Shown piece after piece: positions 15,184 to 51,787 of a stretch of 64,000 bases of DNA. Below the pieces are notes generated by a model, which was not told where the DNA came from, did not search any database, and was given only the letters and a program-made list of their open reading frames with translations. The stretch is taken from positions 1 to 64,000 of the forward strand of contig NZ_JARXXA010000012.1 in NCBI RefSeq assembly GCF_029892785.1. The letters run 5' to 3'. Position 1 is the first letter of the stretch. Each line of letters opens with the position of its first letter. The position numbers and the translations under genes are program-made. Source of the stretch: Parabacteroides sp. PH5-46 (GTDB lineage Bacteria > Bacteroidota > Bacteroidia > Bacteroidales > Tannerellaceae).

Positions 15184-16383
15184 TTATAACAGATTCTTCA
15201 TTGCCTCGTCTATCTGTGAATTTTCGAAGCTATCAAGGTAGATTTGGGTAACCTTTTCCGATGAGTGTCCCATTATTTGGCTTATAATGGCTGTGGGGAC
15301 ACCTGAGCGCTTTAAATTTGTAGCCTGTGAGTGTCTCGAAACGTAACTAGTCAATTTTATTGGTAGATTCAATTCTTCTCCTACCTCCCTGAGCTTTGCA
15401 TTAACTTTCTTAACAACCTTTCGAACTCTGTTTATCTTTTGTTGTTCGGTGCTATGAAAAGATGAAAGAATGGGGAATAAATACGGACTATCTGCATTCT
15501 TATATTTGTTAATCAATTCAAATGCTATAGATTGCAAAGGCAATTTTATCATTCCTTTCGTTTTTTTTCTGACATAGATTAGCTGACCATCTATGATATT
15601 GGCATTAGTTAGATAGGCTATATCTATGAAGTTAATTCCCCCCATGAAATATGAGAATATAAATAGGTCTATCGCCAACTTTAGATATGGATTTGTAGAT
15701 TTATAAGCCATAATTTTGCCTATATCTTCTTTGCTGATAGCTCTTTTTATCGTTTCTTCTTTAAGTTTCGACACCTTATATCTTTTAAAAGGGTAGTTTT
15801 CTGATTTAACGATATTTTCTTCTATAGCACGATTATAGATAGCTCTCAATGTTCTGAACCTGATTCCTATCGAATTATTTGCCAAACCTTTTTGTCTTAG
15901 AAATGACTCATACCCTTTCAACCAAGTAATATCAATATCAGAAAATGGTATGTCTAAATTGCTTTTGAAGGAATTAAGCGAGTTTAAAAGATGCTTATGC
16001 GATGAAGCATAATTGAAACGATTTTCGGTTTTTAACCGCTGAATCTCATTTTCAAGAAAGGTTTTCACTGTCTTCCGTCTTAGTGGTTTATTCAAGCACT
16101 CAATCAAGCTGGAAGCTGTAAACTCTTTCTGTGTAGTCTGAAATTCTATAACCTGAGTTGAATACTGCTTAATCCGCTCTGTTATGATAGATTGAATGCT
16201 ATCATGATTAGGACAATTTCGTTTTAGTTTTCCTTTCTTAAAGTCCCAATATTTTGGGCTGATAGATACTCCAATACTTTTATACTTCTTTTTTCCGTCT
16301 TTGCAGATACGAATCATCAATGGACTTTCTCCATTTGCTAATGTTTTTGACTTGTAACACAAGATGTTAACCGTAGTACTCAT
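15184..16383 (-). CDS. Tyrosine-type integrase of the tRNA-Met element
   Basis: This is a Bacteroidetes integrase with N-terminal arm-binding domain (MSTTVNILCYKSK), a SAM-like core-binding domain (about 100-200) and a catalytic domain. Catalytic residues: K276 (KKTKG), R350 (SRHS), H373 (MGHSS) and Tyr382 (QIYLDSF). The first Arg of the usual R-K-H-R-H-Y set is replaced by Gly248 (FMGGINF), and the His of HxxR by Tyr347. IntDOT of CTnDOT is also known to lack the first Arg. The frame runs back into the tRNA gene to 16533; MSTTV at 16383 is chosen because it matches the family start. Arm-type repeats lie directly upstream. Confidence 0.88.
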   Translation of the reverse strand: MSTTVNILCYKSKTLANGESPLMIRICKDGKKKYKSIGVSISPKYWDFKKGKLKRNCPNHDSIQSIITERIKQYSTQVIEFQTTQKEFTASSLIECLNKPLRRKTVKTFLENEIQRLKTENRFNYASSHKHLLNSLNSFKSNLDIPFSDIDITWLKGYESFLRQKGLANNSIGIRFRTLRAIYNRAIEENIVKSENYPFKRYKVSKLKEETIKRAISKEDIGKIMAYKSTNPYLKLAIDLFIFSYFMGGINFIDIAYLTNANIIDGQLIYVRKKTKGMIKLPLQSIAFELINKYKNADSPYLFPILSSFHSTEQQKINRVRKVVKKVNAKLREVGEELNLPIKLTSYVSRHSQATNLKRSGVPTAIISQIMGHSSEKVTQIYLDSFENSQIDEAMKNLL

Positions 16384-16393
16384 ACTAATTTTT

Positions 16394-16414
16394 GGTTTAA
16401 CTCTTGGTTTAACT
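16394..16414. repeat. Right arm-type integrase repeats
   Basis: GGTTTAACT at 16394-16402 and 16406-16414, the same sequence and 12-bp spacing as at the left end. They sit 10-30 bp upstream of the integrase start, so integrase binding could also regulate its own transcription. Confidence 0.6.
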
Positions 16415-16453
16415 CTGTTCTTAAATAAATAGGAAAATCGATAAGAATAGACA

Positions 16454-16487
16454 CAAAAAAAGCACTCAGAATATTCTCTAAGTGCTT
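16454..16487 (-). terminator. Element-supplied terminator for tRNA-Met
   Basis: AAGCACT (16460-16466) pairs with AGTGCTT (16481-16487), followed on the minus strand by TTTTTTTG. It lies 13 bases past the tRNA 3' end and replaces the original terminator now found at 3850. Confidence 0.65.
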
Positions 16488-16500
16488 CTTTTTCAGTTTG

Positions 16501-16574
16501 TAGCGCGACCCAGGATTGAACTGGGGACCTCATGATTATGAATCATGCGCTCTAACCAGCTGAGCTATCGCGCC
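16501..16574 (-). tRNA. tRNA-Met (anticodon CAT)
   Basis: A full cloverleaf is readable on the minus strand: acceptor GGCGCGA/TCGCGCT, D-arm AGCTCAGCTGGTTAGAGC, anticodon arm CATGA-TTCATAA-TCATG with anticodon CAT, T-arm CCCAG-TTCAATC-CTGGG, discriminator A. CCA is not encoded (ACAA follows), unlike the chromosomal remnant at 3894, which has ACCA. This is elongator-like tRNA-Met or possibly a tRNA-Ile2 with modified C; the loop alone does not settle this. It is the integration target of the element. Confidence 0.92.
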
Positions 16575-35572: not shown

Positions 35573-35582
35573 CTTCACCTTA

Positions 35583-35619
35583 TATAATAAGGGGCAAAAT
35601 ATAATAAGGGGCAAAGATA
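35583..35619 (-). promoter_or_regulatory. Promoter region with direct repeat upstream of the barrel gene
   Basis: TATAATAAGGGGCAAA is repeated at 35583-35598 and 35600-35615; TATCTTTG (minus, 35612-35619) is a -7 box ending in the second copy. The repeat could hold a regulator site. Confidence 0.4.
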
Positions 35620-36381: not shown

Positions 36382-37632
36382 ATGATTTCTGTAAAATTTA
36401 TGCTGCGGGCCTCCAATGTAGAAGGCCGCGCTTTTCGCCTTTTTGTACGCATTATCAGTAAACGTACCACGTACAATGTATCAACCCGTATCCAACTGTA
36501 TCCCAGTGAGTGGAATCTGGACAGGCAAATGATTATCCCGCCGCTCATGGAAGGGGAGCGCTCCCGCTACCTTGCCTGGGCTAAAGCGGAGCTGGAAAGC
36601 GACCGCTACTTTGTTGAATCCACCGCCTTGCGGCTCGAAAGGGAAGGCACACCCGATGCTGCCAAAATAGCTGCTGCCTACAGGCAGTATAAAGAGAAGA
36701 TCAGTGTGGCTGATTATGTCTACAAATTAGTCCTGGGACTGCTGAAAAGGGGACAGGTACGTACCGCCAGGGCTTACCAGACGGTACTGGACAGGTTTGT
36801 CGGCTTTAGTAAAAAACCTGCCATGAATTTTAATGCCATGACTCCCCTGTTGATGAAGAATTTTGAGTTCCAGCTCACCGAAGAAGGGCTTGCACGCAAC
36901 AGTATTTCCTTTTATATGCGTAACCTGCGTGCCATTTATAACAAGGCGGCAGCGGAAGGCATCTTCCAGGCACACAGTATACCGCCCTTCCGCGATGTAT
37001 TCACCGGGAATGCCACCACCCCCAAACGCGCCCTGAGCAAAAAAGAAATGAACCTGCTTGATAAGGTGGAGCTTAAGCTGCGGTCGTCAAAAAACTCCGG
37101 GCTCCCTTTCCACTTGCAGCAGGCGCTGTTGATGTTCCTTTTCAGTTTCCATGCCAGAGGCATGTCATACGTGGATATGGCCTTCCTCAGAAAAGAAGAC
37201 CTCAAAAACAATGTCATATCCTACAAGCGGATGAAGACCGGGCAGCGGATCGAACTGAAAGTGAATCAAAAACTGAAGGATATACTGGCTACCTTCCGCC
37301 CGCTTACCGAGGGAAGTCCCTACCTTCTCCCCATCATCACCCGGAAGAATGTCTCCCCCCGCCTGCAGTATGAGAGCGGCCTACGGAGGCAGAACCATAA
37401 ACTGGGGGAAATCTCACAGTTTCTGGGGCTGAAGAACAAGCTCACCACGCATGTAGCGCGCCACAGCTGGGCCTCTATCGCCAAAGGGGCGAACCTGCCG
37501 CTGGCAGTTATCAGCGAAGCCCTCGGACATACTTCCGAGGCCACTACCCGTATCTACCTGGCCTCCTTCAACAGAAGTGTGCTCGATAAAGCCAATGATA
37601 CGGTAGCAAAAGCCATTACCCATGCCATGTAA
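36382..37632 (+). CDS. Tyrosine recombinase, probable invertase of the fimbrial switch
   Basis: The 416-aa protein is a Bacteroidetes-type site-specific recombinase: N-terminal arm-binding domain (VKFMLRASNVEGRAFRLFVRI), SAM-like domain (about 110-200) and a complete catalytic set, R259 (ARGMSYVDM), K285 (KRMKTG), H357 and R360 (HVARHSW), H383 (GHTS) and Tyr392 (RIYLASF). Related enzymes (Mpi, and the tsr invertases) flip promoters in Bacteroides. Its stop lies only 98 bp from the left inverted site of the invertible segment, and the fimbrial operon follows, so it is the obvious actor. Being a stand-alone gene, not in an element, supports a local switch. Confidence 0.88.
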   Translation: MISVKFMLRASNVEGRAFRLFVRIISKRTTYNVSTRIQLYPSEWNLDRQMIIPPLMEGERSRYLAWAKAELESDRYFVESTALRLEREGTPDAAKIAAAYRQYKEKISVADYVYKLVLGLLKRGQVRTARAYQTVLDRFVGFSKKPAMNFNAMTPLLMKNFEFQLTEEGLARNSISFYMRNLRAIYNKAAAEGIFQAHSIPPFRDVFTGNATTPKRALSKKEMNLLDKVELKLRSSKNSGLPFHLQQALLMFLFSFHARGMSYVDMAFLRKEDLKNNVISYKRMKTGQRIELKVNQKLKDILATFRPLTEGSPYLLPIITRKNVSPRLQYESGLRRQNHKLGEISQFLGLKNKLTTHVARHSWASIAKGANLPLAVISEALGHTSEATTRIYLASFNRSVLDKANDTVAKAITHAM

Positions 37633-38026
37633 ATAACAGCACATTTAAGTTAATTTATGTTTTCCGGGGAAAATGAGGAAAAACGGCGGGTTTTATATAT
37701 ATTTGCAATATCTATTTGTTTTTTAGACCATCTGTCACTTAGTGAGTGACAGAAATAAGGATAAAAACCAGTAATTATCTGCAAATATCTAGCATTTAAA
37801 ATCGCCAGAAATACTTAATTCCTCTCAATCTATTCACAATTATCACCTGTTGGTATTGTGGATACACATATAAAATAGGCCGGAAAATATATGTCAGAAG
37901 CCGGGCAGATAAAGAGAATTTGTCCGGACAGGCAAGCTGTGTCCTTATTTATAAATACTATTGGGGGTACCACATAGGTCATATCAGTATATTTAATCAT
38001 AGTTCTCACTATTTTGGTTCAGGGCG

Positions 38027-38169
38027 CAAAGGTAGTGAATGCCAGGTGGAATAGATAAGCGTTTACAAACATTAGCCGGAAAAAACTCTTTTTAGTTTGC
38101 TAAGGAAGGCATCATTCCTGCATCTTCGACATAAATCCGTTTTTCTTTCTATAAAACTCGCCAAAAGTA
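38027..38169 (-). promoter_or_regulatory. Two minus-strand -7 boxes inside the invertible segment
   Basis: TACCTTTG at 38027-38034 and TACTTTTG at 38162-38169 (minus strand) fit the Bacteroidetes -7 box; neither has a clear -33 TTG. In the sequenced orientation they point away from the fimbrial genes and would face them after inversion. Confidence 0.45.
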
Positions 38170-38349
38170 GATTTAAAACACAGTAAATAAGGCTGTTTAT
38201 AAAATGTTTACAAATTCCACTCTTACAAAGCTTATTCCTTCATTCTTCAAAACGGGCTTTTAAATTACAGTTTAAGGCGGATTTTACAGGGCTTTTGAAC
38301 TGTCCCCTGTTTATAAAAATGTTTCACCTTTTTACGAAACCACACAAAG

Positions 38350-38357
38350 TAGTTTTG
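38350..38357 (+). promoter_or_regulatory. Plus-strand -7 box next to the right inverted site
   Basis: TAGTTTTG lies inside the segment, 107 bp before the DUF3575 start and pointing at it. A -33 TTG is not clear (TTTTTA sits about 22 bp upstream). The overlapping palindrome TTTGCA-ATTAC-TGCAAA (38354-38370) may bind a regulator. Confidence 0.45.
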
Positions 38358-38463
38358 CAATTACTGCAAATATAAGCACTTACATTTTCATTAAGCCTGT
38401 CTGCTGTCACTCACTAAGTGATAGGAGATGGAAGAAGCCTAAAAAAACAGAAGACTAACATTG

Positions 38464-39051
38464 ATGAAAACAAAGAATCGTATAACCGTTGGATGGATAA
38501 AAAAGGCTGTTGTGGTATTAGCCATGCCGGCGTTTTTTATGCCCTTAGCAAAATCACAGGATGTGGCCCTTAAGTCGAACCTACTGTATGACGCGACAAC
38601 GACGCTGAACCTGGGCCTTGAAATCGGCCTGGCTCCCAAATGGACACTGGAACTACCGGCAAATTACAACCCCTGGGAGTTCTCCAGGAACCGCAAGCTC
38701 AAGCATTGGGCCATACAGCCCGAGGCTCGTTACTGGTTCTGTGAGCGCTTCATGGGTCACTTCATGGGCTTGCATGCACACGTAGCAGGCTACAACATAG
38801 GAGGACTGAAGATGTTCGGTCTCAATGAAAACCGTTACGAGGGTTACTTATACGGTGCGGGCATCTCCTATGGCTACCAGTGGATCCTCAGTAAGCGTTG
38901 GAGCATAGAAGCAACCGTTGGCGTAGGATACGCCTACCTCGATCATGCCAAGTATCCATGTGAGAAATGCGCTGAAAAAATCGGCGATTTCACCAAACAC
39001 TATTTCGGACCTACAAAAGCAGGGATCTCACTGATTTATATAATCAAATAA
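38464..39051 (+). CDS. DUF3575 outer-membrane protein, first gene of fimbrial operon
   Basis: The protein matches DUF3575: signal peptide (VVLAMPAFFMPLAKSQ), ALKSNLLYDATTTLNLGLEIGLAPKWTLE, WEFSRNRKLKHWAIQPEARYWFCERFMGHFMGLHAH, ending in ISLIYIIK like an outer-membrane barrel. DUF3575 genes commonly open fimbrillin loci in Bacteroidales. I start at ATG 38464; TTG at 38461 is one codon upstream. Its stop abuts the DUF3868 start. Assembly or anchoring of the pilus is the likely role. Confidence 0.85.
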   Translation: MKTKNRITVGWIKKAVVVLAMPAFFMPLAKSQDVALKSNLLYDATTTLNLGLEIGLAPKWTLELPANYNPWEFSRNRKLKHWAIQPEARYWFCERFMGHFMGLHAHVAGYNIGGLKMFGLNENRYEGYLYGAGISYGYQWILSKRWSIEATVGVGYAYLDHAKYPCEKCAEKIGDFTKHYFGPTKAGISLIYIIK

Positions 39052-40560
39052 ATGGATATGAAAAAGATACTATATATATTATTCATAGCATTGTTGCAAT
39101 CTCAATTGTTAACTGCCTACTGTCAACTGTCAACTGAACTTTTGAAGTTACATTCCCTTCGGCAGGTGGAAGATTCTGTGTTGTTAATCATGGATATTGA
39201 CTTGGCGGATTTGCGTCTTAATACGGAGCGCTCTTTGGAGTTGACACCTGTACTCAGCAATGGGAAAGGACGGGAAGTGAAGATGAAGAGTGTGTTGGTT
39301 AATGGACGCCACCGCCAGAAAGCCTTTGAAAGGGAGGTGGAACTCAATGGATGGCAAAAGCAGGTTGCTTCGGCACATTATGCGGTTATTCCACTCAAGG
39401 CTGAGAACCGTAAAGTCTACCGTTACCGTGAGGCGGTGCCTTATGAAAACTGGATGCGTGAAGCTAAGCTGGATGTATTGTGCGACCTCTGCGGATGCGG
39501 AGGTGAAGCGGCAGAACAGGAAAGCCATAGGCTGGCCGACCGCATCGTTCTTGAAGGGGTGAAAGAATATAACCCCTCCACCCATGTGGCTTATATCCGT
39601 CCCGAGGCGGAACAGGTAAAGGCGCGCAGTGAACAGAGCGATGTCTTCCTGGATTTCCCTGTGGCACGTACGGAGATCAACCCGAGTTTCGGCAACAACC
39701 CCCGCGAATTGGCTAAGATCGAACAGATCATTGGCAGCATACGCTCTGACAAGAACCTGACGGTAACCAGTGCACTTATCACAGGCTACGCTTCCCCCGA
39801 AGGGAATGTAAATACAAACAACCAACTGGCAAGGGGACGTGCCGAAGCTCTCAGGAACTACCTTTCCATGCGTGCCGGTATCCCCTCACACCTCTACCGG
39901 ATCGGTTACGGGGGTGAAGACTGGGAAGGCTTAAGTCGTTTGGTACAGCAATCTTACATAGAACCTAAAGGCACCATCCTTTCAATCATCAATTATTACA
40001 ATCCCGAAGAACGGAAGAACCGCCTTAAGGCACTCAATGGCGGAGGTCCTTACCAGCAGATGTTGCACCAGCTGTACCCACAGCTGCGCCGCGTAGTGGC
40101 AAGAATAGATTACAACGCCAGGAACTTCAATGTGGAAGAAGCCAGGCAGGTAATCAAAACACAACCCCGGCAGCTCAGTCTCAATGAAATGTTCCTCGTG
40201 GCCAACACCTACCCGGAAGGCAGCCCGCAGTTTGTAGAAGTATTTGAAACAGCTGTAAGGCTCTATCCCGAAGACCCGGTAGCCAACCTGAACGCAGCCG
40301 CCTCGGCACTCAAAGCAGGTGACCAGGTGCGCGCAGAAAGGTATTTGCAGCACGCAGCACGCAACACGCAGAACGGAAATGTAGTTCGGGGTACGGCAGA
40401 GTATTATAACAACATAGGGGTACTTGAAATGCTTAAAGGCAATACGGCCAAGGCAAAGAGCCTCTTCAAACGGGCATCAGAGAAAAACCTCGATGCAGCC
40501 CTGAAGAACCTCGACGAAATAAAGAGAAAAGAAGATGCGGAGAAATTGCTGCGCAACTAA
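39052..40560 (+). CDS. DUF3868/OmpA-like protein with C-terminal TPR
   Basis: A signal peptide is followed by a DUF3868 domain (about 30-180, DSVLLIMDIDLADLRLNTERS to VPYENWMREAKLDVLCDLCGCGG), then an OmpA-like peptidoglycan-binding part (ALITGYASPEGNVNTNNQLARGRAEALRNYL, IGYGGEDWEGL) and TPR-like helices at the end (NAAASALKAGDQVRAERYL, NNIGVLEMLKGNTAKAKSLFKRAS). This is the conserved partner of DUF3575 in fimbrial loci and probably anchors the structure to the cell wall. The start codon directly follows the previous stop. The signal peptide region (near 39110-39135) is coded by a TGTCAACTGTCAACTG repeat. Confidence 0.85.
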   Translation: MDMKKILYILFIALLQSQLLTAYCQLSTELLKLHSLRQVEDSVLLIMDIDLADLRLNTERSLELTPVLSNGKGREVKMKSVLVNGRHRQKAFEREVELNGWQKQVASAHYAVIPLKAENRKVYRYREAVPYENWMREAKLDVLCDLCGCGGEAAEQESHRLADRIVLEGVKEYNPSTHVAYIRPEAEQVKARSEQSDVFLDFPVARTEINPSFGNNPRELAKIEQIIGSIRSDKNLTVTSALITGYASPEGNVNTNNQLARGRAEALRNYLSMRAGIPSHLYRIGYGGEDWEGLSRLVQQSYIEPKGTILSIINYYNPEERKNRLKALNGGGPYQQMLHQLYPQLRRVVARIDYNARNFNVEEARQVIKTQPRQLSLNEMFLVANTYPEGSPQFVEVFETAVRLYPEDPVANLNAAASALKAGDQVRAERYLQHAARNTQNGNVVRGTAEYYNNIGVLEMLKGNTAKAKSLFKRASEKNLDAALKNLDEIKRKEDAEKLLRN

Positions 40561-40685: not shown

Positions 40686-42068
40686 ATGAGAAAGACGTTT
40701 AAGTTTTTTATGTGTGCTGCTATTGTGGCGGCAGGGTTTACGGCTTGTTCGAGCGAGGAAGGCACGGCACCGGAAATAACCCAGGGCGAGGACAATTATT
40801 CCAGCCTGATTGTAAGGGATTCCAAACCGGCTACTTACGGGACGGTAGATACCGATCCGGCAGTAACGGAAGAGAATTTGGCTAGTGCGGATAACCTGAA
40901 GGCATTTGTGTACAACAGTGATGTGTCGGGTGGACTTACTCCCCTGGAATTTACTACAGGAGAATCGGAAATTACATTTACCGGTAGCAGCCCCAATTAC
41001 AACAGTAACAAATTCAAGCTTGCTTCAGGTGACAAGTATTTCTACATCTTAGCCAACCAGGCAAATGTGACAGGGGTGGGAGAAAAAGCATCCAGGGGCC
41101 TTTATGAATTGCAAACTGTCAGTGCAGGTTTTTCCAATTATACCTCTGAAAAAGTAGCGGGAACGACCTCTGTTTATCGCGTGAATCCGATCCCGGCAAA
41201 CATTGCTACCGACAACAAGTTTATGATCGGTACACTTTGGGGTAAGGCGACAACTGTTCCTAGCGGCGGAACTGAAACTACGCCTAAGGACATCACCGGG
41301 CTTACCATCGGACGTTTGGCAGCAAAAATAAACCTGACAGAGGTAACTGCCGGCAGCGCAACCCCGCTGGGCGGAACATTCTCCGATGCTACATACCGTC
41401 TTTGCTCGGTACCTGACGCCATGTACCTGGTAGGTCAATGGGACGGCACCAACGAGCCGGGCACCAACACCAGCGCAGCATTGGTTAAGAGTATCTACCA
41501 TGATGAAGCTGCCGGCACGGCAGGCAGCCCGAACACCAAGTTTAAAAACTACAAATGGACAGGCGCCTATGCTCCCGGAAAAGCCTATTATGCAGTGGAA
41601 AACACAACAGCCCTGCAAAACGGCGACCAGTATTACGGAAATACAACCTATATACAGCTGAAAATTAAGTATACTCCTACCGCCACTATCTACAAAGCCG
41701 ACGGTACGTCAGGCGGTACTCTTAGCAACGGTACATTCTGGGTGTATAACGTAAACGGACAGCCGCGTATCTTCGCTGCCGAACCCAGCCAGAGCATAGC
41801 AGGTATCAGTACTACAGGTACCAAATACGACAAAGGTTTTATGTACTATTCTTTCCCGGTGGCTGACAACAGTGAAACAGAGGCCGTAAAAAAACATGCC
41901 GTACTGCGTAACCACTCGTACCTGGTGAAGGTAACCGAAATCAAGAATTTCGGATCGGGAGAAGAATCGGAAGTAATACCGGAAACCCCGATCTCAACCG
42001 AAACATGGGTAACCCTTGAAGTGTCTGTTCTTGACTGGTCTAAAATCGAACAGGACGTTCCATTATAA
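40686..42068 (+). CDS. Major fimbrillin, FimA/Mfa1 family
   Basis: A lipoprotein signal (FFMCAAIVAAGFTAC, Cys21) leads a 460-aa Mfa1/FimA-type protein with the two-domain beta-sandwich signs: NLKAFVYNSDVSGGLTPLEF near 75-95, KYFYILANQANVTG, TIGRLAAKINLTEV, GTFWVYNVNGQPRIF, and the C-terminal LRNHSYLVKVTEIKNFG with VTLEVSVLDWSKIEQDVPL. In type V pili the lipid-anchored precursor is cut near its N-terminus and the C-terminal strand completes the neighbour's fold. It is the main shaft subunit by size and position. A hairpin follows the stop. Confidence 0.88.
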   Translation: MRKTFKFFMCAAIVAAGFTACSSEEGTAPEITQGEDNYSSLIVRDSKPATYGTVDTDPAVTEENLASADNLKAFVYNSDVSGGLTPLEFTTGESEITFTGSSPNYNSNKFKLASGDKYFYILANQANVTGVGEKASRGLYELQTVSAGFSNYTSEKVAGTTSVYRVNPIPANIATDNKFMIGTLWGKATTVPSGGTETTPKDITGLTIGRLAAKINLTEVTAGSATPLGGTFSDATYRLCSVPDAMYLVGQWDGTNEPGTNTSAALVKSIYHDEAAGTAGSPNTKFKNYKWTGAYAPGKAYYAVENTTALQNGDQYYGNTTYIQLKIKYTPTATIYKADGTSGGTLSNGTFWVYNVNGQPRIFAAEPSQSIAGISTTGTKYDKGFMYYSFPVADNSETEAVKKHAVLRNHSYLVKVTEIKNFGSGEESEVIPETPISTETWVTLEVSVLDWSKIEQDVPL

Positions 42069-42165: not shown

Positions 42166-43119
42166 ATGAACAGACAACGATCCTTATTTAGCTCCATACT
42201 GATCCTCCTCCTTTTTTTGGGGAGCTGTATAAACGACGACCTCAGCGAATGTCCGTCGGGAAGGTACCTTCATTTCGAAACACTCAACGGCAAGTACAGC
42301 TTCCGTGATGTAGTGGAAACGGTAGACCTGTACATCTACAAGGGGAACAGCCTGGTGGAAACCAAACGCTATAGCCGGGAGGAGATACAGGCCACGGGAT
42401 ACAAAATATACCTGAACGACCGCCCCAACGGCACTGAGCTGCGTTACGTAGCACTGGTGAACCAGGCGGAAGACTGTTACCATACCACAGGCAGCGAAAC
42501 CTTGGAGGGCATGCTCACCGGGCTTGTTTCCTTAGAAACGGACAGCCTTTCCGACCTCTACCACGGGGCGAAGGACATCCTCTTTGAACACCGCTCAGCC
42601 GGGGTAGCCGATACCATTTACCTGAAAAAGAATACCAACAGGATCAACCTCTATGTAGGCTTTGACGGCTATGAACTGCCCCAAGGAAGTACACTCCATT
42701 CATACATACAGGGGCGCAACGGGCAATACGACTCGGAAAACAAACCCGTGGAAAACAGCCGCTACACCTACCACCCTTACCGTTGGGCACTGGGCGGGGA
42801 AGAGAGCCGCTACGACTACAACGCACACTTTACAACCCTGCGCCTCTGGATAGGCGCCGATACCGATCTTAGCATTGAAAAACAGGATACAGCCGTTTCA
42901 CCACTCAGGGCCACGGAAGCACAACTGCTATACAGGCTCAACATCGTGGAAGAACTGGCCAAAGTGGTGTCCTCAGGGGGTACATACCTCTACGACACCA
43001 ACGAGAAACTGGAACTGGAAGACGAATTTGACATCATACTCCTTCTCGACGGCAGCTTTGTCGTACTGGAGCTCATTATAAACGACTGGGTGGTTATCAG
43101 CAACAGGGTACCCCTATAA
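42166..43119 (+). CDS. FimB/Mfa2-family fimbrial anchor
   Basis: A lipoprotein signal (FSSILILLLFLGSC, Cys21, then INDDLSECP) starts a 317-aa protein of the FimB/Mfa2 family: YLHFETLNGKYSFRDVVETVDLYIYKG, LRYVALVNQAEDCYHTT, IYLKKNTNRINLYVGF, ending in LELIINDWVVISNRVPL. FimB/Mfa2 caps and anchors the base of the pilus in the outer membrane and limits its length. It follows the shaft gene by 97 bp. Confidence 0.88.
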   Translation: MNRQRSLFSSILILLLFLGSCINDDLSECPSGRYLHFETLNGKYSFRDVVETVDLYIYKGNSLVETKRYSREEIQATGYKIYLNDRPNGTELRYVALVNQAEDCYHTTGSETLEGMLTGLVSLETDSLSDLYHGAKDILFEHRSAGVADTIYLKKNTNRINLYVGFDGYELPQGSTLHSYIQGRNGQYDSENKPVENSRYTYHPYRWALGGEESRYDYNAHFTTLRLWIGADTDLSIEKQDTAVSPLRATEAQLLYRLNIVEELAKVVSSGGTYLYDTNEKLELEDEFDIILLLDGSFVVLELIINDWVVISNRVPL

Positions 43120-43130: not shown

Positions 43131-44567
43131 ATGCGCAGTTTATACCGATACATATGGACCGTTTTAGCACTTCCCGCCCTCTGGGCTTGTTCGGGGGAAG
43201 AAAAGACCGTTATCACAGAACCCGAAGGGAAAGAGGAACGCGTCACCATTTATTTTAACAGCATGGGCCCGGCCACCTACGCACTCGACTTCGAGAAGGA
43301 AAGCCGCGTGGAAACCATCGACATCCTCGCCTTTAAGGGCAGCGGTGCAGAGGCCGTATTCGCCTTCAGCCGGCAGATAAACGATGCCGATATGGATACC
43401 CCCGTACTCGAAGAAGCAACGGGCGTGTATAAGCGCAGCTTCGAGGTGGAACTAATCAACGACGGTGAGCAGTACACCTACGTATTCCTGGCCAATGCGC
43501 GCGTAGAAATCTCGGCCTGCCTCTCCGCCTATCCGTCCGTCGTAGAAAAGGGCTACCTGCTTTCGCACCTGGTAGCCTCGAATACCAGCGCCTGGAATAC
43601 AGGCACGGATTACAAGCGTTTACCCATGTGGGGCGAATACGGGCCTGCCACCCCCAAGACACTGGACGGCAAGACCATCGACCTGATACGTGCCGTGGCA
43701 AGGGTGGACGTGAGCGTGACGGCGGCCAACTTCACGATCTCGGCCGTCTATGTGAAAAACCAGTACAACCACGGGCGCATCGTACCGGAAACAGCGAAAT
43801 GGAACGCAACGGACAAAAAAGTGACGGAGCCTTCCCTCCCGCTTAGCGGGGACTATACCGGCTCACTTGTCAACAGCAACCCGCTGCAGTATGCCACCGC
43901 ACCGCGCAGCATATACCTCTTTGAAACGGAACTGCCCTCCGACAATAATTACACCAACACCACCCACCTTATTATCAAGGGTGCCTTGCAGGGGAAAGGC
44001 GAAACATACTACCGTGCCGACTTCAAGGACTTCTTTACAGGGGGAGGCGAAAACAACGGGAACGGATGGGAAGACGGTCCGCCTGCCACAGGGAGTGGCT
44101 CGGGTGGCTTCGTAGGCTCGGGAGACCCCTACCGCCGGCTCTTGCGCAACCACCATTACCAGATGAACATCATCAGTGTGGCGGGGGAAGGCTATAGCAG
44201 CATCGACCTGGCATCGGCAAACCCCAACTCGCAGCGCATGCTATCCGAATACATCAACTGGAACGACCGGGGCAATCAGGTAGACGTAGGCAATGTATCC
44301 TATTCCTTTGATGTGAGCCGGACCAAAATCAGCTTCAACAGCCAGTTCACCCAAGACTTCATCGTAGTGAAGACCAACTACCCGGGTGCCTGGGAGGTGG
44401 AAAATACAAACGCCTGGTTCAGCTGCATTCAAAAGGAGGACGGCATAGAAGTAAACTTCACCGGCAACACAAGTATCCCGGCGGAAGGTTCCTTCAATAT
44501 CCTGCTTAAAAGCAACGGACAGGTGAAGTTCACCAAGAAGATACAAGTTACATGGAACAACGATTGA
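43131..44567 (+). CDS. Accessory fimbrial subunit lipoprotein (FimC/FimD-like)
   Basis: A lipoprotein signal (WTVLALPALWAC, Cys20) precedes a fimbrillin-like fold (VETIDILAFKG, RAVARVDVSVTAANFTISAVYVKN, RRLLRNHHYQMNIISVAGEGY). After about residue 380 a BACON/Ig-like C-terminal domain follows (RTKISFNSQFTQDFIVVKTNYPGAWEV, GSFNILLKSNGQVKFTKKIQV). It resembles accessory subunits that sit at the tip of FimA/Mfa1 pili in P. gingivalis. It is 11 bp after the anchor gene and overlaps the next gene by 16 bp. Confidence 0.75.
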   Translation: MRSLYRYIWTVLALPALWACSGEEKTVITEPEGKEERVTIYFNSMGPATYALDFEKESRVETIDILAFKGSGAEAVFAFSRQINDADMDTPVLEEATGVYKRSFEVELINDGEQYTYVFLANARVEISACLSAYPSVVEKGYLLSHLVASNTSAWNTGTDYKRLPMWGEYGPATPKTLDGKTIDLIRAVARVDVSVTAANFTISAVYVKNQYNHGRIVPETAKWNATDKKVTEPSLPLSGDYTGSLVNSNPLQYATAPRSIYLFETELPSDNNYTNTTHLIIKGALQGKGETYYRADFKDFFTGGGENNGNGWEDGPPATGSGSGGFVGSGDPYRRLLRNHHYQMNIISVAGEGYSSIDLASANPNSQRMLSEYINWNDRGNQVDVGNVSYSFDVSRTKISFNSQFTQDFIVVKTNYPGAWEVENTNAWFSCIQKEDGIEVNFTGNTSIPAEGSFNILLKSNGQVKFTKKIQVTWNND

Positions 44568-45940
44568 CATATATAATTATGTTGCTTTCTGCGTACTGCT
44601 TTCTGCTTTCTGCGTGTACCACGGAGGAAAAAGGAATCGGCCCGGAAAAGCAGCCGCCGGAAACGGAACGCCCCTTTACACTGACCATGGTCATACCGGG
44701 AACAAGTATACCTACGACCTACGCGCTCAGTGCGGACGACGAGAATGCCATACATTCCGTAGACATCTTGGTGTTGGAGGTGTCGGAGAAAGGAGCGTTT
44801 TACCATCACCACATAGCCGTGGACGAAGTGGCGCAACCGGGGGCACTGTCCAGCGTGAAGCAGATAGGCTTTAGCCTGGAAGAGGCGGACGTACAGCTAC
44901 TTGTCCTGGCCAATGTACGCCACTTATTCACCAATACCCTGACGGCCCGGCTTGAAGCGGCGGCACAAAGGGGCGCTGTGGGCAAGGAAGAACTAATGGA
45001 ATACTTTAGTTTCGACTTCTCAAAGCCGTGGGGCAAGGCAGCGTTTCCCATGTACGGGGAGTCGGGCCTTATCGGCCGGACAGACACCGGGGCGGAGGGT
45101 ATACAGATGAAACGGGCCGTTTGCCGTATCGACATCGGCAGCGGCACGACGGGAACATCCGTAGGCACGGAACAGCCCCTGGTCATAGACTCCGTATTTG
45201 TGTTCCATGCCCGGAGCAAAGCATACCTGGCACCCGCTTTCGATGGCAGGGGCAACATACTGGAGAAGCCGAACGTACCCGAAGGGGCACAGCCCAACAG
45301 CCAATGCTTTGCGTATGCCTATACGGAAACCGGCGGAAAAGGGCTGAGCCTGATGGAAGGCGCCATCTATATAGCCGAGGACACCCAGGAGGAGGGCGAC
45401 AAGGAGACCACCCTCGTCATCAAGGCGGCAGCCGGAGAAGAAGAGGCACAGTATTACCGCATCAAGCTCAGCGACAAGGAAGGCAAAGCGATCCCCTTTG
45501 TGCGCAACTACCGCTACCGCGTAATCGTGATGGCGGTGGCCGGAGAGGGCTACCCTACGGCCAGGGAAGCGGCGCTGGCACCGGCCTCGGCTATTTCATT
45601 TGTCGATGCCAACGAGCTTGAACTAAGGGCCATCGAATTCAACGATTATTACCTGCTGGGCCTCTCTACAGACTCCCTGGCTATCGGCTCGGGGGAAAAC
45701 TGCACACTCGATGTGTACACGACCTACGGCAGTTGGTCGGCAGGATGGAAGGAAGGGGGCGAAGCCTTATGGCTCAGCACGCCCACCGGCGAATACCCCT
45801 CCAGCGTAACCTCCCTTGGCCTACAGGCAGCCGGAGGCTATGCAGCGGAAACAGACAGCCGGGCGGCGCTTATCATACGCGCCGGAACACTGTCGAGGGA
45901 AGTAATCATCACATACCGTACAACAACAGAAGAAAATTAG
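44552..45940 (+). CDS. Second accessory fimbrial subunit lipoprotein
   Basis: Start ATG 44552 gives a 22-residue lipoprotein signal (TYIIMLLSAYCFLLSAC); ATG 44579 would leave only 13. The body follows the accessory-subunit pattern (IHSVDILVLEVSE, QLLVLANVRHLF, KRAVCRIDIGSG, VRNYRYRVIVMAVAGEGYPTAREA) with a final Ig-like domain (GENCTLDVYTTYGSWSAG, AALIIRAGTLSREVIITYRT). It is homologous in layout to the previous gene and probably another tip or adaptor subunit. The signal peptide coding region is made of CTGC/TTTCTGCGTAC repeats, unusual composition. Confidence 0.72.
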   Translation: MEQRLTYIIMLLSAYCFLLSACTTEEKGIGPEKQPPETERPFTLTMVIPGTSIPTTYALSADDENAIHSVDILVLEVSEKGAFYHHHIAVDEVAQPGALSSVKQIGFSLEEADVQLLVLANVRHLFTNTLTARLEAAAQRGAVGKEELMEYFSFDFSKPWGKAAFPMYGESGLIGRTDTGAEGIQMKRAVCRIDIGSGTTGTSVGTEQPLVIDSVFVFHARSKAYLAPAFDGRGNILEKPNVPEGAQPNSQCFAYAYTETGGKGLSLMEGAIYIAEDTQEEGDKETTLVIKAAAGEEEAQYYRIKLSDKEGKAIPFVRNYRYRVIVMAVAGEGYPTAREAALAPASAISFVDANELELRAIEFNDYYLLGLSTDSLAIGSGENCTLDVYTTYGSWSAGWKEGGEALWLSTPTGEYPSSVTSLGLQAAGGYAAETDSRAALIIRAGTLSREVIITYRTTTEEN

Positions 45941-45951
45941 ATAGAATGCAT

Positions 45952-48030
45952 ATGAAACAATTAGCTATAATGATCCTGGGAAGCCTGCTTCTGAGTGCCA
46001 CGCAAGCCGGGGCGCAGGAAAGCGCAGTGATGTTCCTCAATACGGGAACCCTCAATGTCGAAGGCAGCACTACCGCCCGTACCGCCCTTTATATACAGGG
46101 CGACATGATGGGCGCAGGAGCGTCCAACATCTACGTGCAGAAAGCCAATATGAAGCTGACAGGGGACCTTATCAACCATTCGGACGACGGCTTCCATGTA
46201 TTCGCCGGGGATGAAAGTGAAACAAACTTTGCCGCCAAGACGGACGGGAGCTTTGAATTCGCCGGTACCTCCCCCCAGCAGATACGCGGCATCGCGGGCA
46301 AGGCCGGCAGCTTTATCCGCTTCCCCCAAACAAGCGTGATAAACAATACCAACGCCACCGATTGGAAACAGGCCACCGTAACGCTTGTGCCCACTGCGGC
46401 AGCCACCATGACCAACCTGCAGCACAAAAGCGGGCGCCTGGTGATAGACTCCGAAACGGGCATGGACTTCAACACCAACAACGCACACCTTATCCTGCAA
46501 GGCACCGCCTCGGGGACGATGTATTATGACAATACGAATCCCGCTGGTCCCTGGGGGCATGTACAGGTGAACCTCGCCTTGGGCGCAAACCAGGGCAAGC
46601 GTATCTTCGGATTCGCCTCCCCCTTCAGCCGCACCTATGCCGACTACTTTATGTACAACTTCCTTTCGGCTCCATCGTCTAAGGGGCTCTTTGGAGACAA
46701 CGGACTGCTTATCACTAACCCCGCCACCTTTGTGGAAAAGGGCAAGGGATATATCGTAGGGCAGGGCCTGGTGGACGAAGCCGCCTATTACAGCGGCATG
46801 CTCGACCCCGAGTGGGCGGGTGCCAAGTATGCCGACCGGGCCACCACCGTGTTCCACTTCGGGGGATTCCCCTACTACGGAGCGGCTTCCATACAGGTGA
46901 AGACAACAGCCGAACGCTATGCGGCCGAAGTGCTTAACAGCTCCGACATCCCCCTTACCCTCTCCAAAGGATTCAATTACCTGGGTAACTCCTTTACGGC
47001 GCCTTTGGACCTGAAGAGCCTGGTGGAAAAAGAAGGGGCGGCGGATAGCGACTGGGGCGTAACGGTAGGCCCTGCCGCTACGGCGGATGTAAAAAACGGC
47101 TTTTATGTGCTCACCAACGGTAGCGGCGCCTATGAGGGAAATAACCGCTTTAGCTTTGCCGCCAGTTGGCTGATCGGACAAAAAGTAGGGGGAACCTATA
47201 CGGGCAGTGCCGGAAACTACGACAGCCAAAACCTCATTGCCCCCATGCAGATGTTCGTGCTCTGGTCCAACAAAGAGAATGTAAGCCTCAAAATACCGGC
47301 AGCCAAACGTACACACGGCATTGTGGATTTCCTCCGCGCAGCGGAAACCGAGAGCGGCCCCATAGATGAAATACTCCTGGAAAGCCGTGACACCCGGACA
47401 GGCGGCTTCGACCGCTTCTGCGTGGTATTCCGTCCCGACGCTTCGGAAGCGGCTACCGACCCCTACGATGCCCCCAAACTGTTTAACCGCTCCGGCGGCG
47501 TAAACCAATTATACACCCGCTCGTCGGACAACAAGGAAATGACAACAACTGTGATACCCCCTACCACCTACCGCATTCCCCTCTATTTCGAGCCTTCACT
47601 AGAAATACAGGAAGTGGAGCTGGAAGCCTCGCGTTTGGAATCCCTACAGTCTGTACAGGAGGTGATACTGGAAGATACCCAAACAGGCAAAAAGAGCAGT
47701 TTGATGCGCAATGCCGTCTACCGCTTCACTTCCAGCCCAGGAGATAGCCCGGCACGCTTTGTATTACACTTCCGTAATACGGCAACAGGCATGGAAGCGA
47801 TAGAAGAGAAGGCCTTTACGGCTTCGTACCGTAACGGTATCACCTCCGCATATGGCCTTGACGAAGCGGACAGGGGCGAATACCTCTACCTGTACAATGT
47901 GAAAGGGGAGCTTCTCTATCGCGAGAAAGTAACGGAACTATTCCCGCAAAGGATACGCAAAACCCTGACAACGGGCGTGTACATCCTCCGCACAGAAAAA
48001 GGCAGGACAACAAAACTATCGGTTAAATAA
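45952..48030 (+). CDS. Exported fimbrial-locus protein with T9SS-like C-terminal domain
   Basis: Start MKQLAIMILGSLLLSATQAGAQ (45952; another Met at 45946) gives a signal peptidase I signal, not a lipoprotein. The roughly 650-residue body has right-handed beta-solenoid-like or Ig-like stretches (LNVEGSTTARTALYIQGDMM, VQKANMKLTGDLINHSDDG). The last 75 residues (YLYLYNVKGELLYREKVTELFPQ, TLTTGVYILRTEKGRTTKLSVK) match the C-terminal sorting domain of type IX secretion substrates. If so, it would reach the surface by a different route from the lipoprotein subunits. The frame is open upstream to 45733 but those codons belong to the previous gene. Confidence 0.65.
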   Translation: MKQLAIMILGSLLLSATQAGAQESAVMFLNTGTLNVEGSTTARTALYIQGDMMGAGASNIYVQKANMKLTGDLINHSDDGFHVFAGDESETNFAAKTDGSFEFAGTSPQQIRGIAGKAGSFIRFPQTSVINNTNATDWKQATVTLVPTAAATMTNLQHKSGRLVIDSETGMDFNTNNAHLILQGTASGTMYYDNTNPAGPWGHVQVNLALGANQGKRIFGFASPFSRTYADYFMYNFLSAPSSKGLFGDNGLLITNPATFVEKGKGYIVGQGLVDEAAYYSGMLDPEWAGAKYADRATTVFHFGGFPYYGAASIQVKTTAERYAAEVLNSSDIPLTLSKGFNYLGNSFTAPLDLKSLVEKEGAADSDWGVTVGPAATADVKNGFYVLTNGSGAYEGNNRFSFAASWLIGQKVGGTYTGSAGNYDSQNLIAPMQMFVLWSNKENVSLKIPAAKRTHGIVDFLRAAETESGPIDEILLESRDTRTGGFDRFCVVFRPDASEAATDPYDAPKLFNRSGGVNQLYTRSSDNKEMTTTVIPPTTYRIPLYFEPSLEIQEVELEASRLESLQSVQEVILEDTQTGKKSSLMRNAVYRFTSSPGDSPARFVLHFRNTATGMEAIEEKAFTASYRNGITSAYGLDEADRGEYLYLYNVKGELLYREKVTELFPQRIRKTLTTGVYILRTEKGRTTKLSVK

Positions 48031-48061
48031 AATAGATATAAAAATAAAACAGAGATAACAG

Positions 48062-49714
48062 ATGAAACGAATCAGATTAAAACTAACAGTATGGTTGGCT
48101 GTGATAGCCGGGACAATTCCGGCATACAGCCAGGTAACAGTGGGCTCGGACATCACCCCCACACGTGCGGCGCTCCTTGAAATCAAGACACAGCAGACCA
48201 GCGGCAAGGTAGCCTCCGTAACCGATGATAAGAACATCACATCGGGTAAAGACGGCGGGGGATTCCTCTTGCCCCGGGTAAAACTAGTCAATACCGGTAC
48301 GCTGGAACCCTTTATCGAGGCGGATGACGATGAGTTTGTAAACAATGTAGGCTCGCTGAAAGAGAAACTGGCGGGGCTGATGGTGTACAATATCACCAAC
48401 AACGGGGGGGCGCTCTACCCGGCGGTGTACACCTGGAACGGCGCCTACTGGGTGACCTCGCAGGCCAACGAAGCGGTGTCGTCTATTACGAAACAGCCCA
48501 AAAAGTTTACCTTTTATGAACTGGGGACAGAAACACCCGCTGCACTGGAATTTAAAGTAGACGGCCAGGGCGACTGGAGCTACCAATGGTACCAGGTGAC
48601 AGGAAACAATGTGCATGTGCGTATCGGGACAGCCATAGGAGGATCGGGAACGGTAACGGGAACGGGAGCGACGACAAGCAAATTTACGCCGACGGGAGTT
48701 ATTAAAGGAACGACCCGCAATGCCAAGAATGCAGGCTTTTATAAATTCTATTGCATCGCAAACAGTTCGCTGGGCGCAGAATTAACATCCGATATAGCCG
48801 AAGTAGCCGTGGGCTGCGGGGCCAAGAACAATGCCGGGGAATGGCTGTCCTTTATGTGCTTCAACCTGGGGGCTACCACTCTGACGATTGAGGCGCAGAA
48901 AAATCATTCCATGACTTTCAATCCTGCCAATGAATCAAACGGTTTACATTATTACATTGCCGGGGAAGAAAACCTCTACGGTGACCTGTACCAATGGGGC
49001 CGTATTGGCGATGGGCACGAAAAGCGTGGGGCATCGGCAGGCTTTGTCGCCGGACAAAAAAACGCCGGGACAAACCAGGTGGCTTATGGCGAAGGTCCTA
49101 CGTATGAGAGTGGTAACCTGATTGCTCTACAGAATTACCCGTGGCGGCAGGTAAAGCGTAATACTGACCATTACGGGAAGTTTATTCTCACAACTTCAGA
49201 GCAAAATGCCAACTGGGCATATAACTTGTCTGCCACCCAGATAGACCGGATATGGCGCAGCGGACGTTTGGCCGCTAACGACCCCTGTGCCAAAATTAAG
49301 GAAGACGGCATCAGCTACGAGACCTATTATCCTGCAACGAATGGCACCAGCGGAGCGAATACCGCTTGGCGCACACCCTCCCAGGATGAATGGAGAAGCC
49401 TGTACAAAGGGGGCGCTATCGCGGGCACTCCGGCCACGGCTACGGCCAATACCTGGGTATGGAACAGTGTGAATGGCCGTGGTTATGAGATCAAACCGGA
49501 CGGCGAGACAACCACCCTCTTTTTACCTGCAAGTGGCTCCCGAGCCGCTACTAATGGTCAGCTCTATAATCAGGGAACGGGCGCCAACTATTGGACTATC
49601 GGTACTATCGGTACGGATGCATACATGCTGAGCTTCAACAGTAGCACCGTTAATTCCGCTGGTAGTGGTAACCGGGGCCAAGGCTGCACATTGCGTTGCA
49701 TTAAGCACAATTAA
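48062..49714 (+). CDS. Tip adhesin candidate with FISUMP domain
   Basis: A signal peptide (VWLAVIAGTIPAYSQ) is followed by VTVGSDITPTRAALLEIKTQQ and GGFLLPRVKL, an N-terminal motif of surface fibre proteins. Next comes an Ig-like domain (WSYQWYQVTGNNVHVR to YKFYCIANSSLG) and, from about residue 265, a FISUMP-type domain (FNLGATTLTIE, YGDLYQWGRIGDG, AWRTPSQDEWRSLY, GYEIKPDGETTTLFLPASGSR, GCTLRCIKHN). FISUMP relatives have a lectin-like fold and are often adhesins. It is the last surface protein of the operon and is probably the pilus tip ligand-binding subunit. Confidence 0.72.
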   Translation: MKRIRLKLTVWLAVIAGTIPAYSQVTVGSDITPTRAALLEIKTQQTSGKVASVTDDKNITSGKDGGGFLLPRVKLVNTGTLEPFIEADDDEFVNNVGSLKEKLAGLMVYNITNNGGALYPAVYTWNGAYWVTSQANEAVSSITKQPKKFTFYELGTETPAALEFKVDGQGDWSYQWYQVTGNNVHVRIGTAIGGSGTVTGTGATTSKFTPTGVIKGTTRNAKNAGFYKFYCIANSSLGAELTSDIAEVAVGCGAKNNAGEWLSFMCFNLGATTLTIEAQKNHSMTFNPANESNGLHYYIAGEENLYGDLYQWGRIGDGHEKRGASAGFVAGQKNAGTNQVAYGEGPTYESGNLIALQNYPWRQVKRNTDHYGKFILTTSEQNANWAYNLSATQIDRIWRSGRLAANDPCAKIKEDGISYETYYPATNGTSGANTAWRTPSQDEWRSLYKGGAIAGTPATATANTWVWNSVNGRGYEIKPDGETTTLFLPASGSRAATNGQLYNQGTGANYWTIGTIGTDAYMLSFNSSTVNSAGSGNRGQGCTLRCIKHN

Positions 49715-49728: not shown

Positions 49729-50904
49729 ATGCTTAAATATATAACGATACTGTGTTTTGTATGGCTACCGGTCATCGCCTCTTGTCGGACAATAGACGTA
49801 CGGCTACCCTCTTACGCCGGACGGGAGTATTCCTGCTCTTTGTTTGAAGGAGCTAAGCAGGATACTATTGCTAAGGGAACACTAGATGCAGACGGCAAGG
49901 CAGTTATCCGTTTGTCCGGGAACTATCGCGGCGTAGCCTGCTTCTCGGTCAAGGATTCCGCTAAGGTATGGAATATTGTTGTCAGTGGTGATGAAGATAT
50001 TTGTATGAGCGAAGAGGGAACGCTTTTGTTTGAAGGCTCGCCCGAGAATAATTTTCTACTTCGCTCGATGGAGAGGCAAAACAACATCATACAGAAATAC
50101 GTAGATGCCACCAATGTTATGCAAAGGCAATCGATAGAGACAGAGTACAAGGCTTTCCGGAAGGAAATAACGGATAGCCCCCTCTATGCCGCCCGCCTAT
50201 TGGAGATCTTAAACCTATTGACAGGCGTAGGCAGCTCCTTTACCATCACAGAGGAAGAAATGCTGGAAGAACAATACGCCTTTGTGGTGGATCAATTGGA
50301 TTTTATCGATCTCTATAGCAGTGGGTTCTGGGAGCCGGTATTCGAACTGTGGATGCAGCAAAGCTACGCCAAGGATACCGTATTGGTAGCCGATGCCCGC
50401 CGCATGATTGACAGCTGCGGGCATGATATCCCCGTACGCCGCGAAGTAACACAGGCCATTATCCGCATGTTCAGTAAGTATGCAAAAGACAACTTACTGG
50501 CAGAGCTGGGAGTGGAATACCTGACCATGCCCCTGAACGGGCAAGCGGCACCGGAAATCGTACAGGAGGATACTGCAACATTAGTGCCCGTAAGCAGCCT
50601 GATCGTCTTTTACGAAACCGGCTGCGGCAATTGCCATTACGAGCTGGAACAGCTGAAAGAGAAATACAAATTACTGAGAGATAATAATATCCGCGTGATC
50701 TCCATCGCCGCCGACATAGACAAGGATATATTTGAAGCGACCGCCCACAGCCTGCCCTGGACAGACAAACTCTGCGACCTGAAAGGCTTTGAAGGCGAGA
50801 ACTTCCGGCACTACGGCATCGTAGGTACACCGACCTATATCCTGACCGACAGCGAAGGCATCGTACGCGGAAGATATGCACAACTTAAAAAACTTCTTCC
50901 TTAA
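49729..50904 (+). CDS. Thioredoxin-fold (TlpA-like) exported protein
   Basis: A short signal peptide (ITILCFVWLPVIASC, possibly lipoprotein, Cys19) is followed by a beta-rich N-terminal domain, a helical part (about 110-270) and a C-terminal thioredoxin domain. The redox motif is C-G-N-C in FYETGCGNCHYELEQLKEKY, and cis-Pro is in VGTPTYILTD. TlpA-like proteins in Bacteroidetes reduce or isomerise disulfides in the envelope. In this operon it probably helps fold Cys-containing fimbrial subunits. Confidence 0.78.
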   Translation: MLKYITILCFVWLPVIASCRTIDVRLPSYAGREYSCSLFEGAKQDTIAKGTLDADGKAVIRLSGNYRGVACFSVKDSAKVWNIVVSGDEDICMSEEGTLLFEGSPENNFLLRSMERQNNIIQKYVDATNVMQRQSIETEYKAFRKEITDSPLYAARLLEILNLLTGVGSSFTITEEEMLEEQYAFVVDQLDFIDLYSSGFWEPVFELWMQQSYAKDTVLVADARRMIDSCGHDIPVRREVTQAIIRMFSKYAKDNLLAELGVEYLTMPLNGQAAPEIVQEDTATLVPVSSLIVFYETGCGNCHYELEQLKEKYKLLRDNNIRVISIAADIDKDIFEATAHSLPWTDKLCDLKGFEGENFRHYGIVGTPTYILTDSEGIVRGRYAQLKKLLP

Positions 50905-50908
50905 AATT

Positions 50909-51787
50909 ATGAGGACAGGTATGATACAGCAGGAGGGATTCCAGTACATGGAAGTGGGAGAAGGAAAAGCGTTCCGTCTACCGATCCGGAAGCACAACTA
51001 TTTGATCTTCCTTTTGGAGGGAGAAATGCAGATCAGTTGCAACAACTTCTACCGTCGCGAGCTGCCTGAGGGGTGTTTTATGCTGGCTCCCATAACGGCA
51101 GACACCCTTTGCCGCAGCCTGCGTCCCTGCCGCTTGGTCCTACTGGCATTCAACGCCCTGCCGGCAGTCTATAATGGCCGCTATATGGCGGAACTGTACC
51201 AGATAGCCAAAGAGACGGACGATACGTTCGAGCCGGTGGTGACATGCGAGGCATTGCAAAAGTTCCTGAAACTGCTGCTGGGATACGAGAAAGCAGGGAT
51301 AGACAGTCCCAAACTGCATGCAATTAAAAGCCTGGAGCTTTTCCTTCTATTGCAAGCCTTCTACAGTACTCAGGAAGTAGCAAAGCTGTTACACCCGCTG
51401 GTGGGCAACAACCCCGCCTTCCGGCTGGATGTACTACGCTACTACCGGAACGTAAAGCGATCAGACGATCTGGCAGCTAAATTAGGCATGGAGAGCCGTG
51501 CCTTTGCCCTGGAGATGAAGAGAGAGTTCGGACTCTCCCCTTACCGGTGGCTCTTAAAGCGGAAAGCCGCCCATATCTATTTCAGCCTGCGGGAAGAAAA
51601 AGAGAAGCCCCTGGAAGTCATCTGGCTGGAAAACGGCTTCTACTATGCCGGACACTTCAGCCGCTTCTGCAAAGAACAATTCGGCGCTCCGCCGCTGAAA
51701 ATCAGGAATGCCTTGCGGCATTCTGAGGAACACGCAGCACGCAGCACGCAGCACGGATTTTCCCCCTCTCTTGTGGAGAGGGGTTAG
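50909..51787 (+). CDS. AraC-family transcriptional regulator
   Basis: The C-terminal half carries the AraC helix-turn-helix pair (DLAAKLGMESRAFALEMKREFGLSPYRWLLKRKAAHIYF and PLEVIWLENGFYYAGHFSRFCKEQFGAPPLKIR); the N-terminal half is a cupin-like sensing domain (RKHNYLIFLLEGEMQISCN). I start at ATG 50909, 4 bp after the previous stop; ATG 50876 would overlap that gene. It ends the fimbrial operon, so it would be made only when the switch is on and could reinforce it. The last 20 residues (EEHAARSTQHGFSPSLVERG) are encoded by a repeat element that runs into the gene. Confidence 0.82.
   Translation: MRTGMIQQEGFQYMEVGEGKAFRLPIRKHNYLIFLLEGEMQISCNNFYRRELPEGCFMLAPITADTLCRSLRPCRLVLLAFNALPAVYNGRYMAELYQIAKETDDTFEPVVTCEALQKFLKLLLGYEKAGIDSPKLHAIKSLELFLLLQAFYSTQEVAKLLHPLVGNNPAFRLDVLRYYRNVKRSDDLAAKLGMESRAFALEMKREFGLSPYRWLLKRKAAHIYFSLREEKEKPLEVIWLENGFYYAGHFSRFCKEQFGAPPLKIRNALRHSEEHAARSTQHGFSPSLVERG

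Follow-up and report, generated by a model that had tools for sequence, protein, structure and literature searches.

The fimS switch of Escherichia coli (fimB/fimE) resembles the locus described here in having, ahead of a fimbrial operon, a short promoter segment that is turned around by a tyrosine recombinase; it differs in length, at about 300 bp, and in its fimbriae, which are of the unrelated chaperone-usher kind. To our knowledge, the fimS segment holds no regulator gene. In Bacteroides fragilis, Tsr19 / BF2766 is described as a case of local promoter inversion, in which a tyrosine recombinase adjoins a promoter bounded by inverted repeats and bearing a -7 TAnnTTTG box (PMC4747536), and a phase-variable fimbria-like locus has been reported from the same species (Weinacht 2004, as cited in PMC12632263). 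Since fimbria-like loci of this kind have been cited (PMC12632263) and promoter inversion of the Tsr19 type has been described (PMC4747536), phase-variable fimbriae with neighbouring recombinases are already known in gut Bacteroidales. Here we analyse a putative switch of this sort in a stretch of 64,000 nucleotides from Parabacteroides sp. PH5-46 (hereafter the window) and compare it with its paralogues and relatives. The features are collected in Table 1; the two ends of the segment are called A and B.

Table 1. Features of the putative switch and its fimbrial operon, in window coordinates.
Feature	Position	Strand	Evidence
Tyrosine recombinase gene, 416 aa, presumed inverter of the segment	36382..37632	+	Pfam; paralogues beside five more site pairs
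TATATTTGC, outside the segment and facing it; fixed when the segment turns	37698..37706	+	-7 match in 6/6 paralogues
Left recombination site, CTGTCACTT-AGT-GAGTGACAG	37731..37753	+	Site search, comparison with paralogues
Putative invertible segment, inner 649 bp; A end left and B end right in the assembly	37754..38402	.	Paralogue C10 inverted
A-end outward -7 element, GATATTTGC; -33 is TTTC at 37808-37811	37781..37789	-	Points away from operon; one base off TANNTTTGY
Second A-outward -7-like element, TATATTTTC	37883..37891	-	6/6 paralogues
Repeated motif CTGTTTATAAAATGTTT, candidate regulator site	38193..38209	+	9/9 genome matches within six segments
Second motif copy, CTGTTTATAAAAATGTTT, 114 bp on	38307..38324	+	Repeat search
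Right recombination site, inverted partner of the left	38403..38425	-	Site search, comparison with paralogues
First operon gene, DUF3575	38464..39051	+	Pfam 8.3e-79
DUF3868 / OmpA-like gene	39052..40560	+	Pfam
Mfa1-family major fimbrial (shaft) subunit	40686..42068	+	NCBIfam NF038041, 150 bits vs cut-off 130
Mfa2-type anchor	42166..43119	+	Pfam 2e-31
Further fimbrial / tip-like subunit genes	43131..49714	+	Weak sub-cut-off Mfa1-family, FimD-tip and FISUMP matches
Thioredoxin-like gene	49729..50904	+	Pfam matches slightly below cut-offs
AraC-type regulator gene at the operon 3' end, start codon uncertain	50876..51787	+	Pfam HTH_18 1.2e-12; five paralogues

Recombination sites, recombinase and operon

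An initial annotation of this DNA had proposed two inverted sites about 650 bp apart, and these are present, with 649 bp between them; an 18-nt stretch, TCACTTAGTGAGTGACAG, is identical in both, and the sites are inverted to each other. The palindromic character that it had ascribed to them holds for the left site, TCTGTCACT-TAGTG-AGTGACAGA, a perfect 9-bp palindrome with 5 nt between its halves, and fails for its partner, GCTGTCACT-CACTA-AGTGATAGG, an imperfect palindrome with three mismatches to the pattern as first drawn. At up to three mismatches, the site pattern was matched twice in the window against 0.01 matches expected, and two matches were reached in none of 100 shuffles. This is the window's one pair; the genome search that had been suggested for more copies returned several pairs beyond it. 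The gene distances were also as first given, with the recombinase stop codon (37632) 98 bp to the left and the first ATG of the operon (38464) 38 bp to the right.

As in Tsr invertons, short inverted repeats bound an intergenic segment upstream of surface genes, and the adjacent tyrosine recombinase has intact family domains; profile searches identify the switch gene as a tyrosine recombinase, in place of the serine recombinase of Mpi-type switches. The site had earlier been set apart from the Mpi core. The difference stands, yet Mpi is the wrong yardstick, because it is a serine recombinase (PMC4747536, PMC5903667).

The recombinase left of the segment had been called complete, and it is full length at 416 aa with both Pfam domains, Phage_int_SAM_5 (3e-15) and Phage_integrase (9.7e-9). 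Residues R259, K285, H357, R360, H383 and Y392, which we take to be the catalytic residues, are invariant in seven recombinase paralogues. Among solved structures, the recombinase profile matches XerA, XerH, IntI4 and an XerC-like protein only. When 18 genomes of same-genus species were searched at E <= 1e-80, the recombinase was found in one, the own genome, so this set offers no close outgroup. A further tyrosine-recombinase-like gene in the window (15184-16533, minus strand) shares 32% identity with the switch recombinase.

To the right of the segment, genes for an Mfa1-family shaft and an Mfa2-type anchor bear out the type V fimbrial operon recognised there earlier. The DUF3868 gene contains an inverted repeat of 22 nt (91%; 39141-39162 / 39797-39818, 634 nt apart), and a perfect 17-nt tandem duplication, ATATAATAAGGGGCAAA twice, lies at 35582-35615.

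Paralogous cassettes and an inverted segment

In the own genome (4.42 Mb, 39 contigs), recombinase paralogues with 84-88% identity to that of the window were found on contigs C14, C11, C10 and C19 (two). Each of these five is followed by a site pair and then by a DUF3575 gene 91-92% identical to that of the window, which makes six window-type cassettes with the window included. A seventh, diverged cassette lies on C22 (recombinase 57%).

The inner segments of the six window-type cassettes align over 632-666 nt, five in the same sense and that of C10 reversed. On the minus strand, the C10 segment aligns across 633 nt at 89.7%, and its local alignment score against C14 is 503 when reversed and 13 in the same sense. 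Its breakpoints fall inside the 13-bp site core: the outer flanks are constant by side in C10 and the others (left ATCTGT, right CTAT, read toward the core), and the inner flanks of C10 are swapped relative to the other window-type cassettes, as would be expected of conservative exchange in the core. C10, with its whole segment reversed, is natural comparative evidence, short of raw reads, for the segment inversion that had been proposed; opposite orientations are seen between paralogues in the assembly only. Judged by its segment ends, C22 is inverted as well: its segment has the C10 orientation and is similar to five of the six A ends in the window-type set, the exception being the window's own (no match at E <= 1e-3). 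The A end thus stands on the right in two of the seven assembled cassettes of the genome.

Several related stretches of the same genome were noted. The C10 and C14 contigs (L029 and L031) both stop after codon 422 of DUF3868, and these operons were probably broken there by near-identical paralogous sequence. On C8:98000-108000 (L128), a recombinase paralogue (54%) adjoins a TetR-type gene, and neither a site pair nor a fimbrial gene was detected in that stretch. Four more recombinase cassettes (L129, L130, L131 and L132, on C4, C5, C8 and C3) show 40-42% identity, site centres GGT or GCT, segments of 415-729 bp and large lipoprotein genes downstream, with FISUMP (Fib_succ_major) domains in the two of these genes that were scanned. 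In L131 (4415-4677) and L132 (reverse strand, 3773-4032), a second large inverted repeat with arms of 57-59 nt, some 145 nt apart, lies within the segment. A fimbrial operon with a DUF3575 gene (72%) on C14:60000-72000 (L133) has no recombinase detected in that stretch; an AraC-type match with one stop is found at C14:50713, some 14 kb from this operon.

Site grammar among relatives

The sites of relatives share the grammar GTCACTT-NNN-AAGTGAC. Exact copies are rare, occurring in 6 of the 123 family genomes and, of 392 genomes sampled from the order, in 4, the own genome being counted in both; this scarcity weighs against the mechanism proposed below. Seventeen strict pairs, defined as two exact sites on one contig within 1.4 kb, were collected. 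The two 3-nt centres are reverse complements of each other in all 17, and a centre is common between pairs in 5 of 136 comparisons. Left out of the 17 were nine strict sites lacking a strict partner nearby (three in G000, two in G032 and one each in G110, G430, G144:C22 and G146:C55); in those that were inspected, the partner is degenerate or lies past the end of the contig. Pairs with mismatched arms were also kept out of this count, since they had been filtered partly by complementary centres; at up to one mismatch per arm, the own genome has more pairs with complementary centres on C3, C4, C5 and C8. The idea that private centres form an address code isolating each cassette does not hold generally, since one centre is common to C10, C12 and C14 and G146 reuses centres.

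The initial annotation had named relatives with the recombinase but without the paired sites as evidence that would count against the switch, and here the outcome was mixed. At up to two mismatches per site, a motif-type pair was found in 20 of 80 distant relatives with at most 45% identity (drawn from named genomes, the own species and paralogues lying outside the set); the same search gave no motif-type pair in the other 60, some of which are cut by contig ends.

Promoter-like motifs and the probable direction of the switch

The published Bacteroidota -7 consensus is TANNTTTGY (PMC12632263). Promoter-like elements pointing outward at the A end are conserved in all six window-type segments, 39-40 and 140-142 nt from the site, and support the earlier suggestion that inversion of the segment would turn the operon on or off. 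In the A-end -7 element of these six, G replaces the first T and none is an exact TANNTTTGY; the -33 of the second element is TTTA in the window and TTTG in the other five. Sixteen long segments, comprising relatives and C22 (L043, L164 and L165 fall outside this count), were searched for the exact motif. Outward within 70 nt of the A end, it occurs in 10 and is absent from six, against a background of 18 in 2,884 sequence windows; at the B end, outward, it occurs in none. Given the tendency of TANNTTTGY to face outward from the A end, the orientation with A on the right is probably ON and that of the window, with A on the left, probably OFF.

The OFF call for the window is uncertain and could be wrong, because an exact TANNTTTGY match at its B end, TAGTTTTGC, faces the operon in the present orientation. 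The segment might therefore invert as proposed and the window be ON now, driven from the B end. We consider this unlikely: although a relaxed promoter match at 57 nt accompanies the B end in three of the six window-type segments, it is not conserved in the other three, the exact match is confined to the window among the six, and the long segments favour the A end over the B end by 10/16 to 0/16.

Less likely still is that transcription starts at a fixed promoter left of the segment and reads through, with inversion acting by way of an orientation-dependent leader or terminator. The element TATATTTGC at 37698 would suit such a role, being a -7 match outside the segment conserved in all six paralogues, but it lacks a good -33 (2/4 at best), no terminator-like site was found in 37600-38500, and no known RNA in Rfam matched the segment near its gathering score. 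A scan for sigma-70 type promoters, which does not cover those of Bacteroidota, returned none.

AraC-type regulator genes

By tblastn, an AraC-type gene lies inside all 19 site-bounded segments of 985-1235 bp that were examined (L034, L037, L039, L043, L063, L139, L140, L143-L148, L151-L154, L164 and L165), intact in 13 and broken in six (L139, L140, L148 and L151-L153). The same search gave no AraC-type match in 17 shorter segments of 235-729 bp, namely the six window-type ones, L129-L132, L040, L071, L105, L141, L150, L166 and L167. HTH_18 scores above the Pfam cut-off in the operon-end gene of the window and in those that lie inside the segments of L034, L143 and L037; the broken gene of L139 gave ExsA_N and HTH_AraC only, below cut-off. 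Downstream of the regulator-bearing segments stand DUF3575 fimbrial operons in most of the Tannerellaceae MAGs and an Mfa2-like gene in two Dysgonomonas genomes. The in-segment gene points away from the downstream genes in 18 of 19 cases and toward the operon in C22, as expected for an inverted segment. In L140, L151, L152 and L153, a frame break divides the regulator gene in two, on or close to a run of six or seven T. The break has one common position in three of them and a different one in L151, and it may reflect slipped-strand variation, a programmed frameshift or decay.

In the window, the AraC-type gene, to which the initial annotation had not pointed, is the last of the operon and overlaps the thioredoxin-like gene by 29 nt. 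Five paralogues of it (55-61%) lie after fimbrial genes in partial operons, each starting at a contig boundary (C5, C6, C13, C16 and the start of C22); that of C16 has an in-frame stop. There are as many of these fragments as there are window-type cassettes truncated at a contig boundary, so they look like the 3' halves of the other window-type operons. A further AraC-type match, with one stop, is found at C22:29702 in the direction of the C22 operon. We considered and rejected the idea that a single regulator had moved from the one position to the other, segment or operon end, since a tree of 26 AraC-type proteins groups the two kinds apart; they look like two lineages. Traces of a former regulator gene within the segment of the window were likewise rejected, as no match lies there. 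The repeated motif near the B end (Table 1) has all nine of its genome matches in the six window-type segments, against one match for a backward control, and is a candidate regulator site, although common descent alone could give this distribution.

The nearly constant direction of the in-segment genes might suggest that such cassettes flipped formerly and are now relics, each fixed in one orientation, so that the switch of the window is inactive. The imperfect right site would agree with this, as would C19a, whose two site centres differ by one base. We judge this about as improbable as the fixed promoter, given that the recombinase reading frames are open in all six window-type cassettes and that the paired centres match in five of them. 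An assembly artefact at C10 is the least credible explanation of its inversion: the assembly is a draft, several of its 39 contigs breaking inside fimbrial operons, but the repeated site spans only about 20 bp, below the usual read length, both junctions have C10's own sequence, and C22 is an independent case.

Proposed mechanism

We hold it very probable that positions 37754-38402 form an invertible promoter element that the adjacent recombinase flips, probably ON with A to the right and OFF with A to the left, and that the switch is linked to a regulator of the AraC type. The recombinase would bind the site arms (CTGTCACTT/AAGTGACAG) and exchange strands in the centre, turning the segment around. 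With A on the right (C10, C22), the promoter-like sequence of the A end would face the fimbrial operon; in the window and the four further window-type cassettes that have A on the left, it would face the 3' end of the recombinase gene. The regulator of the window, encoded at the operon 3' end, would be made only upon transcription of the operon and could act back on the segment; in the relatives, the regulator encoded within the segment would act on the switch region. We infer the inversion from comparison among paralogues, the action of the A-end promoter on the operon from motifs, and the regulator step from gene position. The genome holds at least six segments that can probably flip, each between its own recombinase gene and surface-fibre genes, and individual cells probably turn the fibres on or off in this way.

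A more tentative reading, to which we give rather less than even weight, is a switch of two layers, in which inversion sets the direction of the promoter and the AraC-type regulator, in the segment (relatives, C22) or at the operon end (window type), reinforces the state through the segment. As one genome would then run six or more of these switches side by side, some of them with identical site centres (C10, C12, C14), cross-talk of recombinases and regulators between fimbrial operons could occur.

Comparison with known systems

In its description, the locus is like B. fragilis Tsr19 / BF2766, a recombinase-adjacent invertible promoter controlling surface genes (PMC4747536), a likeness drawn from the published account. 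It differs in that Tsr19 / BF2766 controls an exopolysaccharide and also genes clustered at a distance, two regions being served by a single recombinase, and the passages of that account available to us mention no regulator gene within the segment (PMC4747536). Alike in kind is the B. fragilis locus whose phase variation is described as under tyrosine recombinases and whose product was afterwards identified as fimbriae (type V pili) (PMC12632263). An invertible segment large enough to hold a gene is reported from the fimbriae of Providencia stuartii (844 bp), where it encloses a recombinase gene (PMC5903667); the segments of the window's relatives enclose an AraC-type regulator instead. Among catalogued gut invertons, those of Bacteroidota likewise neighbour surface genes and tyrosine invertases, and the portion of that report consulted names no AraC gene within a segment (PMC11892184). 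Among the literature matches listed, a coverage that leaves out most subscription journals, none reported a fimbrial invertible segment with a regulator gene in it.

To these systems, the present analysis adds (i) a family of cassettes with a transcription regulator gene inside the invertible DNA, (ii) a natural pair of opposite orientations among the paralogues of one genome, and (iii) a readable site grammar of fixed arms and a variable centre, with the centres of a pair reverse-complementary. With this grammar, such switches can be found from sequence and partner sites predicted, and it can now be tested whether inversion is coupled to a regulator loop and whether the six parallel switches are independent of one another.
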